This document shows, piece by piece, positions 2,503-29,603 of a stretch of DNA of 64,000 bases (positions are counted from its first letter, which is position 1; the number at the start of each line of letters is the position of its first letter). The translations under genes and the position numbers were made by a program. This stretch comes from Acidovorax sp. 69. Lineage in GTDB: Bacteria > Pseudomonadota > Gammaproteobacteria > Burkholderiales > Burkholderiaceae_C. The notes under the pieces were generated by a model that saw nothing but the letters and a program-made list of their open reading frames with translations, had not been told where the DNA came from and ran no database searches. The stretch is from the NCBI RefSeq assembly GCF_002797445.1, contig NZ_PGEP01000001.1, positions 3,472,501-3,536,500 on the forward strand, read 5' to 3'.

Positions 2503-3771
2503 ATGACCGTACCCCAATCCCCTCTTGCGGCACCCGATGCCGAAACAGCCAGCGTCTACCGCCACTCCGGCTTCATGTCGTTTCTGATTGCCCGCGTGGT
2601 GGCTGTCGTTGCCACCCAGGTGCAGGCCGTGGTGGTGGCTTGGCAGGTGTATGACCTCACACGCGAACCGTTGGCACTGGCCTATGTGGGCCTGGCGCAG
2701 TTTCTGCCCATGCTGTGCCTGCTGCTGCCAGCGGGTGATCTGATCGACCGCTTTGATCGCAAACGGATCCTGGCATTGAGCTGGTCGGTGGGCGCCCTGT
2801 GCAGCGCACTGCTGTGGGGGCTGGCGGGCCACGGGGCCAGTGGTGTGGCTGGCATTTATGCCGTGCTGGTGCTGTACGGCTGTTCGCGCGCGTTCTCGGG
2901 CCCGGCGATGCAGAGCCTGCTGCCCCAGATCGTGCCGCGTGGCCAGCTGGCGCAGGCGATTGCTGCCAACAGCATGCTGATGCGGGTAGCCAGTATCGGG
3001 GGCCCCCTGCTGGGCGGTTTGCTCTACGCGCTGGGGGGTGGCGAGCTGACATATGCCCTATGCTGCGCCTGCTTTGTGCTGGGTGTGGCACTGCTGTTGC
3101 GCGTGGTGGTGGCGCATGCCACGGCCCCAGGCCCCGCGCAAGGCACCATGTGGCAGCGCTTTGGCGCGGGCATTGCGTTCATCCGCTCGCGGCCCATCAT
3201 CCTGGGCACCATTTCGCTCGACCTGTTTGCCGTGTTGCTGGGCGGCGTGGTGGCCCTGCTGCCCATTTATGCCCAAGAGGTGCTGCATGTGGGCCCGGCG
3301 GGCCTGGGGGCGCTGCGCAGCGCCATGGCCGTGGGCGAGGTCAGTGCGGGGCTGTACCTGAGCATGCGGCCCTTCAACCGCAACGTGGGGCGCACCATGT
3401 TCATCGCTGTGGCGGTGTTTGGCATGGCCAATCTGGTGTTTGCGCTGTCCACACTGTTCTGGCTGTCGTTTGCGGCGCTGATGGTGGCGGGCGCGGCCGA
3501 CATGGTGAGCGTGTACATCCGTGGCGCACTGGTGCAGTTCTCCACGCCCGACACCATGCGCGGGCGCGTGAACGCGGTCAACATGCTGTTCATCGGCTCA
3601 TCCAACGAGCTGGGCGAATTCCGCGCGGGCACCAGCGCCGCGTGGCTGGGCGTGGTGCCAGCGGCCATTGTGGGCGGCCTGTGCACACTGGGTGTGGTGG
3701 GCGGCTGGGCGCTGGCCTTCAAGCCGTTGCGCGAAGTGGACCGGTTTGAAGAGGCGGCCAACGCGCATTGA
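2503..3771 (+). CDS. MFS transporter, EntS-like efflux family
   Basis: The 422-aa protein is a 12-helix major facilitator. The N-terminal half has YRHSGFMSFLIARVVAVVAT and WQVYDLTREPLALAYVGLAQ, followed by GDLIDRFDRKRIL, the MFS motif A loop between helices 2 and 3. This pattern is common in the EntS/MFS_3 subfamily that exports siderophores or drugs. The substrate cannot be inferred from sequence alone. The ATG at 2503 gives a short cytoplasmic N-terminus and is preferred over an upstream in-frame ATG. The gene converges with the DHH phosphoesterase, separated by about 34 bp. Confidence 0.8.
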   Translation: MTVPQSPLAAPDAETASVYRHSGFMSFLIARVVAVVATQVQAVVVAWQVYDLTREPLALAYVGLAQFLPMLCLLLPAGDLIDRFDRKRILALSWSVGALCSALLWGLAGHGASGVAGIYAVLVLYGCSRAFSGPAMQSLLPQIVPRGQLAQAIAANSMLMRVASIGGPLLGGLLYALGGGELTYALCCACFVLGVALLLRVVVAHATAPGPAQGTMWQRFGAGIAFIRSRPIILGTISLDLFAVLLGGVVALLPIYAQEVLHVGPAGLGALRSAMAVGEVSAGLYLSMRPFNRNVGRTMFIAVAVFGMANLVFALSTLFWLSFAALMVAGAADMVSVYIRGALVQFSTPDTMRGRVNAVNMLFIGSSNELGEFRAGTSAAWLGVVPAAIVGGLCTLGVVGGWALAFKPLREVDRFEEAANAH

Positions 3772-28112: not shown

Positions 28113-28394
28113 ATGAAGGCAGTTTGGAACAATGTGGTTGTTGCCGAGAGCGACGACACCGTAGTGGTCGAAGGCAATCACTACTTTCCCGAAAGCGCGC
28201 TCAACCGCGACTACTTCACTTTCAGCAACCACAAGACCACCTGCCACTGGAAGGGCCAGGCCAGCTATCTGTCTTTGCTGGTCAACGGCGAGATGAACTC
28301 CGACGCCGCCTGGTTCTATGCCGACCCCAAGCCCGAAGCCGAAGAGATCAAGGGCCGCGTGGCGTTCTGGAAGGGTGTGAAGGTTGCACCTTGA
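28113..28394 (+). CDS. DUF427 family protein
   Basis: The 93-aa protein is a single DUF427 domain. MKAVWNNVVVAESDDTVVVE, NHYFPESALNRDYF, TTCHWKGQASYLSL and AAWFYADPKPEAEEIKGRVA are its conserved blocks. It is a small cytoplasmic beta-rich protein of unknown function. The ATG at 28113 follows an AGGATCT-type ribosome-binding site. Downstream begins the repeat-rich noncoding region. Confidence 0.88.
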   Translation: MKAVWNNVVVAESDDTVVVEGNHYFPESALNRDYFTFSNHKTTCHWKGQASYLSLLVNGEMNSDAAWFYADPKPEAEEIKGRVAFWKGVKVAP

Positions 28395-28405
28395 CCCCCC
28401 GTGCG

Positions 28406-28519
28406 GGTTATCCCTGCCAGCGCTGGACAATCATGTGGATAAGTTTTGACAAGCCCTGTATGACCGTGCCAAGTGCTTGATTTGTAAGGAAACACACTGC
28501 ACCGCCTTATTTTTAAGCA
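28406..28519 (+). repeat. 114-bp direct repeat, unit 1
   Basis: The unit starts GGTTATCCCTGCCAGCGC and contains GGACAATCATGTGGATAAG, with a perfect DnaA box at 28434-28442. It is the most diverged unit: its right-hand hairpin is lost, and the second inverted GGATAACC arm reads GGATAAGT. Confidence 0.85.
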
Positions 28520-28539
28520 ACATGGAAAATCATGGCGCC

Positions 28540-28653
28540 GGTTATCCCGTCCTGCACTGGACAATCTTGTGGATAACCTTGGATAAGCCTTGTATGGCAG
28601 CTTTAAGTGTTTGATTTACAAGGAATATCCTTGTGAAGCTTAAAAAACAGGCA
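28540..28653 (+). repeat. 114-bp direct repeat, unit 2
   Basis: Unit 2 has inverted arms GGTTATCC (28540-28547) and GGATAACC (28571-28578), a DnaA box at 28568-28576, and a hairpin ACAAGGA-ATA-TCCTTGT. It ends GCTTAAAAAACAGGCA. By hand alignment it differs from unit 3 at about 14 of 114 positions without gaps. Confidence 0.88.
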
Positions 28654-28711
28654 CATTTGATTCACTTTGCACGCCAGCCGCCAACACCCCAGAGATGGCC
28701 ACAAAGCCCCC

Positions 28712-28825
28712 GGTTATCCCTGCCTGCACTGGACAATTCTGTGGATAACCTTGAACAAGCCTTGTATGACAGGCTTAAGTGCTTGATTTACAAGGATTAT
28801 CCTTGTGTCGCTTAAAAAATAGGCA
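28712..28825 (+). repeat. 114-bp direct repeat, unit 3
   Basis: Unit 3 has inverted arms GGTTATCC (28712-28719) and GGATAACC (28743-28750), a DnaA box at 28740-28748, and a hairpin ACAAGGA-TTA-TCCTTGT whose loop differs from unit 2 while the stem is kept. It ends GCTTAAAAAATAGGCA. Confidence 0.88.
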
Positions 28826-28886
28826 ACCCACCAGGACCAACCTTCTGCGGTACATTGCACGTCGGCGCACGCCCTAACGCTCTCAA

Positions 28887-28926
28887 TTCAATAGCTTCTA
28901 ACGCTTGATATACAAGCGCTGGAAGC
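28887..28926. repeat. dispersed palindromic element, copy f
   Basis: TTCAATAGCTTCTAACGCTT, ATACAAGCGCT and GGAAGCC form the clearest copy of the family, ending 12 bases before the methyltransferase ATG, so it lies in that gene's leader. Confidence 0.7.
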
Positions 28927-28937
28927 CAAAATCATCC

Positions 28938-29603
28938 ATGTCCCTTCCAGCCCTTCAGCACAGCCCCGCCGCAGAACGCAACCAGGCCCCCATCCTGGCC
29001 CAGCTGCTGGCGCTGCTGACACCCACAGGCGCGGCCCTGGAGATTGCCAGCGGCACCGGCCAGCACGCGGCGCACTTCGCCGCCGCCTTTCCCGGCTGGA
29101 CTTGGCAGCCCACGGACCAACAGGCCACCCACTTTGCATCGATCACCGGTTGGGCCGCCCAGGCCGGCGCTGCCAACGTGCGGGCGCCGCTGCGGTTGGA
29201 TGTGCTGCAAAGCCCCTGGCCCAGCGAGGGCCCGGCGTTTGGCGAGTCATCGTTTGACCTGATCTACTGCGCCAACATGCTGCACATCGCCCCCTGGGCC
29301 TGCTGCGCCGGGCTGATGCAGGGCGCGGCGCGGCACCTGGCGCCGGGGGGTTGCCTGGTCACCTACGGGCCCTACCTGGAAGACGGCGTGCCCACAGCCC
29401 CGGGCAACCTCGCCTTTGACGCCAGCCTGCGCGCGCAGGACGCCGCCTGGGGAATCCGCCGCCTGGAGGACGTGACCACGGTGGCCACCCAGGCGGGCCT
29501 GCGCCTGACCGCGCGGCACGCCTTGCCCGCGAACAACCTGCTGCTGGTGTGGACCAGCGCCCAGCCAGCCACTGCACAACCTCTGACGGAAGCGACCCCA
29601 TGA
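28938..29603 (+). CDS. DUF938-type SAM-dependent methyltransferase
   Basis: The 221-aa protein resembles the DUF938 class I methyltransferases. It begins LQHSPAAERNQAPILAQL, then ALEIASGTGQHAAHFAAAFP (SAM-binding loop), WQPTDQQATHFASI, DLIYCANMLHIAPWACCAGL and GGCLVTYGPYLEDG. The methylated substrate is unknown. Its stop overlaps the start of the ferredoxin gene (ATGA), so the two are a translationally coupled pair. Confidence 0.82.
   Translation: MSLPALQHSPAAERNQAPILAQLLALLTPTGAALEIASGTGQHAAHFAAAFPGWTWQPTDQQATHFASITGWAAQAGAANVRAPLRLDVLQSPWPSEGPAFGESSFDLIYCANMLHIAPWACCAGLMQGAARHLAPGGCLVTYGPYLEDGVPTAPGNLAFDASLRAQDAAWGIRRLEDVTTVATQAGLRLTARHALPANNLLLVWTSAQPATAQPLTEATP

Follow-up and report, generated by a model that had tools for sequence, protein, structure and literature searches.

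The window, the 64,000-nt stretch of the Acidovorax sp. 69 genome analyzed here (positions 3,472,501–3,536,500), contains a 543-bp noncoding region (28395–28937) between a DUF427 gene (PF04248; 28113–28394, + strand, stop at 28394) and a DUF938 methyltransferase gene (PF06080; 28938–29603, + strand, start at 28938). Both neighbors were assigned with Pfam and lie outside the repeat array that fills much of the region; ribBA starts 1.1 kb past the start of the DUF938 gene. Repeat search and profile matches locate three gapless 116-nt direct repeats, all on the + strand: unit 1 at 28404–28519, unit 2 at 28538–28653, and unit 3 at 28710–28825, with start spacings of 134 and 172. The initial annotation had recognized three direct repeats here, and we confirm them with the adjustment that its 114-bp units begin two bases further in. 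Identity to the reference copy is 68% for unit 1, 100% for unit 2, and 88% for unit 3. Counted over the 116 positions, units 2 and 3 differ at 14, in agreement with the earlier gap-free estimate of about 14, units 1 and 2 at 37, and units 1 and 3 at 33. The region was also correctly described as AT-rich, with a G+C content of 47.9% (44.3% within the units) versus 63.3% for the window.

Each unit contains one perfect DnaA box, as previously observed: TTATCCACA (as TGTGGATAA) is exact in all three, starting at 28434, 28568, and 28740. Exact boxes occur 20 times in the 4,966,379 bases of this single-contig genome, a rate that predicts 0.0022 boxes in 543 bp versus the three observed (P ~2e-9, with sites treated as independent). 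Three exact boxes are therefore not a product of chance.

We note that the tail of the region (28876–28940) is a dispersed short repeat, unrelated to the units and present in several to many places in most Acidovorax genomes searched. Two exact TTATCCACA boxes between AGCGCTT...AAGCGCT arms are seen in L001 and L008 (~1501), in a repeat that resembles this tail repeat.

Each unit combines putative DnaA boxes with IHF- and Fis-type sites

Alignment of 111 units from 44 loci reveals a fixed layout: putative boxes I (+), II (−), and III (−) are followed by an IHF consensus site and then by a Fis-type site. These units were collected at a profile limit of E ≤ 0.001, so that more diverged units may be left out, and 15 of the 126 profile matches were dropped as belonging to five loci that repeat others (L032–L036). 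Conservation sets in and ends sharply at the unit edges, and a length change is found in none of the 126 profile matches and in none of 69 units collected through DUF427 loci. The boxes start at unit positions 5 (+), 19 (−), and 31 (−), and are thus 14 and 12 bp apart. Conserved blocks comprise TTATCC (positions 5–10; 102/111 units), GGACAA (22–27; 105/111), TGTGGATAA (31–39; 90/111), a TGGACAA-like site (41–49), TGTATG (54–59), YAAGTG-N-TTGATT (67–79), and GC-N2-A/T run-GGCA (101–116). The initial annotation missed boxes I and II as well as the IHF and Fis sites; its broader impression, of a control locus bound by DnaA in which box position is under selection, appears to be right.

In unit 1, the box I-like site TTATCCCTG (28408–28416, +) and the box II-like site (28422–28430, −; GCTGGACAA on the + strand) each match 5 of the 8 informative bases of TTWTNCACA, and the perfect box III TTATCCACA lies at 28434–28442 (−). 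It is followed by an extra weak box, box D (28444–28452, −; TTTTGACAA on the + strand), which may be a further DnaA site, by an IHF site recognized by pattern match, CAAGTGCTTGATT (YAANNNNTTGATW; 28470–28482, +), and by a Fis-type site, GCCTTATTTTTAAGC (28504–28518, +), identified by eye with one departure from the strict consensus. Unit 2 repeats this order, box comparison giving a box I-like site TTATCCCGT (28542–28550, +) and a box II-like site (28556–28564, −; ACTGGACAA on the + strand) ahead of the perfect box III TTATCCACA (28568–28576, −), a putative box D (28578–28586, −; CTTGGATAA on the + strand), an exact-consensus IHF site TAAGTGTTTGATT (28604–28616, +), and a relaxed Fis-type site, again found by eye, GCTTAAAAAACAGGC (28638–28652, +). 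In unit 3, the box I-like site is again TTATCCCTG (28714–28722, +) and the box II-like site again ACTGGACAA on the + strand (28728–28736, −), both by box comparison; the perfect box III TTATCCACA (28740–28748, −), the candidate box D (28750–28758, −; CTTGAACAA on the + strand), and IHF and Fis sites that both match their consensus exactly (TAAGTGCTTGATT, 28776–28788, +; GCTTAAAAAATAGGC, 28810–28824, +) complete the unit. Boxes I, II, and III of the window hence match 5, 5, and 8 of the 8 informative bases, compared with 7, 7, and 7 in E. coli DARS2 and 7, 8, and 7 in DARS1, and the boxes of other Burkholderiales families are nearer to TTWTNCACA than those of the window. The low agreement of boxes I and II counts against a DARS2-type reading.

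The IHF consensus is quoted as WATCAANNNNTTR (PMC4585315) and as TAAnnnnTTGATW (PMC4245941). At unit positions 67–79, the form with Y as its first base is present in 101/111 units versus 0 expected from shuffles, and the stricter form with T first in 44/111 versus none expected. For Fis, the consensus GnnYAnnnnnTRnnC (PMC4245941), a permissive motif, is matched at positions 101–115 in its strict form by 25/111 units and with YR at both places by 57/111 (expected 0.12 and 0.4, respectively), while all 111 units have G at position 101 and C at position 115. Within the window, only unit 3 carries the exact consensus. The putative Fis site is the least certain of the site assignments, and its loose matches likewise count against a DARS2-type reading.

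A fixed length, strong conservation, and a hairpin in units 2 and 3 could also point to tandem small RNAs or another structured transcript. The hairpin in question, ACAAGGA-N3-TCCTTGT, was reported by the initial annotation; it is confined to units 2 and 3, and 61 aligned units do not preserve it as a structure, its cells being paired in 54.3% of cases versus 52.7% in shuffles, with no excess of two-sided changes and thus no excess of covariation. The consensus fold consists of two pairs (−0.07 kcal/mol) with no compensatory pair, and an Rfam search of the region returned nothing at E up to 1. We consider a structured transcript very unlikely.

The array is old in Acidovorax, and unit matches recur in the family

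In a search of 40 genomes, unit matches were found in 19 of the 23 other genomes of the genus; two of the remaining four have the tail repeat only and two have neither. Among 20 Acidovorax loci (own included), the DUF427 and DUF938 genes were each found in 19. Three exact boxes spaced 134–135 and 172–184 are present in 12 of these loci and three spaced 137 and 138 in one, and the other seven have two. Absence from close relatives, which the initial annotation named as a refuting outcome, is thus not what these genomes show.

In the 16 three-unit Acidovorax loci, units at the same position share a mean identity of 0.821 between species; for units at different positions, the mean is 0.727 across species and 0.729 inside one genome. 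For 44 of the 48 units, the closest unit is the one at the same position in another species. This positional retention indicates that the triplication is old in the genus and that its copies have not been homogenized.

Direct repeats with DnaA boxes also recall iterons, an origin remnant, or a mobile repeat, the first two having been raised by the initial annotation. We found no support for iterons, an origin remnant, or a mobile element: the array has no match at E ≤ 1e-5 in 72,556 plasmid and 50,697 phage records, which likewise does not refute the initial annotation, the same locus is present in 19/23 relatives of the genus, and no fourth unit is matched by our unit model in the genome itself at E ≤ 0.01 (stricter filters, nine candidates scored). 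This whole group of explanations is, in our view, the least credible of those considered.

A family-wide DNA search yielded matches in 57/399 genomes. The unit model is a sequence-only model built from 61 of the 111 units, hand-picked for diversity. At E ≤ 0.01 it matches 234/399 family genomes and 100/141 genera, chance matches included, and at E ≤ 1e-6 about 115/399 (hand count); no match is found in 165/399. A few of the weaker family matches (e.g., G062, G055, and G168) show one-base length changes. We count these, the genomes with no match, and the chance matches against a DARS2-type reading of the units. Class-wide, the model matches 24/369 genomes at E ≤ 0.01, 22 of them outside the order and all weak, with a best value outside the order of 3.3e-4.

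Related box geometry in other Burkholderiales

At the level of the order, the model matches 64/300 genomes, five of which are family members, and the matches are individually weak. Since the class-wide search gives a rough chance level, single weak order-level matches are leads rather than members. We scanned for box triplets in 26 loci of other Burkholderiales families (78,854 bp), which were picked with the model and thus do not sample the order at random, although in many cases the stretch that the model matched left box I out. The 14/12 spacing is by far the commonest, with 31 triplets; the runner-up has 8, and the average over spacing pairs is 0.15. These triplets occur in 15/26 loci, with 20 of the 31 in L096, L098, L100, and L121, all of family f8; in a looser scan, these four loci hold six or seven sets each, a few of them on the other strand. 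In the loci of the family, scanned with lowered thresholds, 14/12 also comes first (89), followed among the same boxes by 26/10 (72) and 26/21 (60), a result that also counts against a DARS2-type reading.

Twenty cores with a correctly placed IHF site resemble TTNTNCACA-N5-TGTGGANAA-N3-TGTGNNNAA, close to the E. coli cores. In these other families, the distance from box I is 51 or 52 bp to the IHF site and, in most cases, 84 or 86 bp to the Fis site, compared with 62 and 96 bp in the family of the window. The offsets of the window family are therefore longer by about one helical turn, and box D lies there. The occurrence of related arrays in many Burkholderiales suggests a conserved candidate switch for replication timing.

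Gene neighborhoods

Copy number varies among the best 80 of 575 DUF427 loci: 31 have units and 49 have none in the stretch fetched, which contig ends shorten in some cases. All 69 units from these best 80 are gapless and run in the same direction as DUF427. In four of the best 80 (three of them Hydrogenophaga), a unit lies ~2.9 kb downstream of DUF427, and the Polaromonas, Ramlibacter, and Variovorax loci among them have no unit near DUF427. In L038, L052, and L059, a search for DUF427 came up empty and ribBA adjoins the array, which in L038 has an SDR gene at its other end; the array in L051 has an IclR gene and an outer-membrane efflux gene as neighbors. In L096, L098, L100, and L121, the array is bordered by xseA at one end and by an ExbB or ExbD gene at the other. 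In L099 (family f32), one neighbor is xseA, and the reading frame tried on the opposite flank has no Pfam match.

These neighborhoods bear on the idea that the array is a DnaA-, IHF-, and Fis-controlled regulatory region for its neighbors (DUF427, SDR, DUF938, or ribBA). Such a role would suit the many loci in which the array directly follows DUF427, and those in which its neighbor is SDR or ribBA. The same unit type is, however, found by exbB/exbD and xseA in the four f8 loci, by the IclR and efflux genes in L051, and at ~2.9 kb from DUF427 in the four loci above, which makes neighbor regulation improbable.

Chromosomal position

In the genome under study, dnaA is at 154 kb and the array 1.62 Mb away. 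We sought dnaA in 25 genomes: 16 were placed first, followed by six with several arrays or scattered units and one of another family (three of these seven with rounded genome lengths), and G046 and G095 were left out of placement. A dif terminus pattern of the E. coli type matched 0/25 genomes, so that dnaA is the sole reference for all positions. Coarse skew sampling (20 samples) was noisy, one sample having 5000 N in 8000 bases. In the 16 genomes, the array lies at 0.59–0.95 of the half genome, counted from dnaA, and its Fis end faces the incoming fork in 15/16, with dnaA taken as the origin. In the further genomes, units lie at 0.53–0.98 of the half genome. Genus g35 has a second, nearer array in 3/3 genomes placed, at 0.16 (G185), 0.27 (G336), and 0.40 (G395), and the far position is consequently not a rule. 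Since the neighboring genes travel with the array, its position is weak support. Two separate unit groups each are seen in five genomes of genus g35 (G057, G185, G268, G336, and G395; L051, L091, and L092).

Two further stretches of the same genome were observed. Between priA and hemE (L006/L222; G000:C1:688746-689326), a strongly conserved noncoding stretch has two copies of the IHF consensus followed by TGTGGATAACTTTGTTGA; it is matched in 29/30 Acidovorax genomes (own included), in one over 39 bases only, and lies 0.50–0.62 Mb from dnaA in 6/6 genomes placed, which makes it origin-near like datA by position alone. The other stretch (L002–L004; G000:C1, ~86.1–86.8 kb), ~68 kb from dnaA, combines DnaA boxes, A+T-rich stretches, and CTACTACTAC runs, which we take to be DnaA-trio-like, in two blocks, and is possibly the true oriC.

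A probable array of DnaA-reactivating elements

Judging from the order, spacing, and conservation of its sites, the region probably consists of three compact DnaA-reactivating elements of the DARS2 type, arranged in tandem. In E. coli, ADP is released through the head-to-head arrangement of ADP-DnaA on boxes I and II together with DNA bending by IHF and the action of Fis (PMC5742627, PMC4245941, PMC8682772). By analogy, ADP-DnaA would bind boxes I, II, and III of each unit, and as box I faces box II, we propose that two DnaA molecules meet head to head. IHF, at the site starting 28 bp past the end of box III, would bend the DNA, and Fis at the far end would join the complex, whereupon DnaA would drop its ADP as at E. 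coli DARS2, and the freed protein could bind ATP and start replication at oriC. Repetition of the unit may raise the capacity of the locus or make recharging graded.

The genome encodes the three proteins that this mechanism would require. Besides the DnaA gene, three IHF-like genes are present: two are 51% and 42% identical to E. coli IhfB, and the third is a weaker match. The single Fis relative (41%) immediately follows dusB, an arrangement shared with E. coli. Binding of DnaA, IHF, and Fis, release of ADP, and an effect on the timing of initiation are predicted for the Acidovorax array, in which the tandem units would presumably add up.

Most of what is understood about how DNA elements recharge DnaA comes from E. 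coli. If the arrays recharge DnaA, the mechanism extends deep into Burkholderiales, a strongly conserved noncoding stretch gains a testable role, and the natural differences among arrays in unit number, spacing, and box strength offer ready variants for tests of DnaA, IHF, and Fis cooperation. More tentatively, and with slightly less than even confidence, we propose that Burkholderiales use tandem DARS2-type arrays of two to six units, with unit number setting DnaA-recharging capacity, instead of single DARS loci, and that a separate origin-near DnaA/IHF element (the priA-hemE stretch in Acidovorax) may act oppositely, in a datA-like manner.

Sequences similar to DARS1 and DARS2 are described as conserved in many proteobacteria (review PMC10380432), and DARS-like conservation is noted for beta- and gamma-proteobacteria (PMC5742627). 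DARS-like sites are therefore nothing new in themselves outside E. coli. Tandem DARS arrays, or DARS in Acidovorax or Comamonadaceae, are not reported in the literature searched, which included few subscription papers and no supplements.

Comparison with datA, DARS1, and DARS2

Clustered DnaA boxes with IHF sites would also suit a datA-like locus, which with IHF would assemble ATP-DnaA and promote ATP hydrolysis, or would titrate DnaA, and would in either case hold initiation back. Like the array, datA is intergenic and combines DnaA boxes with IHF binding, in its case at one exact consensus site, and genus g35, in which three genomes have an array only 0.16–0.40 of the half genome away from dnaA, would be in keeping with such a role. 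However, the essential datA boxes all have the same orientation, the IHF site lying between the second and third of them, and datA is close to oriC (PMC5742627), whereas in Acidovorax box I is opposed, the IHF site lies outside the core, and the array is 1.62 Mb from dnaA. The scanned E. coli datA stretch also has no match to the Fis consensus. A datA-like function is thus unlikely, and we rejected datA identity on box and IHF geometry: the initial annotation's datA-like reading was right in its theme, and the geometry is that of a DARS core, with box I inverted and a 14/12 spacing. The datA-like DnaA-box clusters of Bacillus subtilis and Streptomyces coelicolor are likewise among the closest known systems.

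DARS1 and DARS2 cores share one common spacing, with box I opposite to boxes II and III (PMC5742627; opposed boxes I and II also in PMC8682772), and both loci lie between oriC and the terminus in E. coli (PMC5742627). Our core scan covered two MG1655 stretches (L061 and L062; 19.0 kb), from which the 14/12 figures are taken, and returned three places: DARS1 (L062:5108/5122/5134), DARS2 (L061:3136/3150/3162), and a second set in the DARS2 region (L061:3452/3466/3478). This second 14/12 set (L061:3452-3486) is perhaps the trace of an older repeat, or chance. DARS1 is identical to the Acidovorax units in core spacing and orientation; it differs in having one core rather than an array and no IHF pattern within one mismatch in the scanned stretch.

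The DARS2-type reading of the Acidovorax array finds its closest counterpart in DARS2 itself, which is activated through IHF and Fis sites (PMC4245941). Both are intergenic, with an inverted box I, the 14/12 start spacing in the core, and an IHF and then a Fis site, the latter putative in Acidovorax, on the box III side; past box III, DARS2 has two one-mismatch IHF patterns (L061:3229 and 3245, the latter on the other strand) and an exact Fis pattern at 3281. In DARS2, a 5-bp shift of the Fis site is more harmful than a 10-bp shift, the IHF site moved towards Fis tolerates 5 bp worse than 10 bp, and moving it 5 or 10 bp towards the core leaves it only partly effective (PMC4245941). Spacing therefore matters, which fits the fixed-length units found here.

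The two systems are nevertheless distinct. DARS2 measures 455 bp (PMC5742627) versus a repeated unit of 116 bp here, and in the Acidovorax units the perfect box is box III and an extra weak box D follows the core. The IHF site starts 93 bp from box I in E. coli (IBS1), 62 bp here, and 51 or 52 bp elsewhere in the order, differences that are near whole helical turns. The Fis offset, in contrast, differs by 49 bp (145 in E. coli versus 96 here), which is not a whole number of turns and counts against the DARS2-type reading. In overall sequence, the E. coli DARS cores score −27 and lower on the unit PWM versus 92–98 for the units, and the link between the Acidovorax array and DARS consequently lies in geometry and site order.
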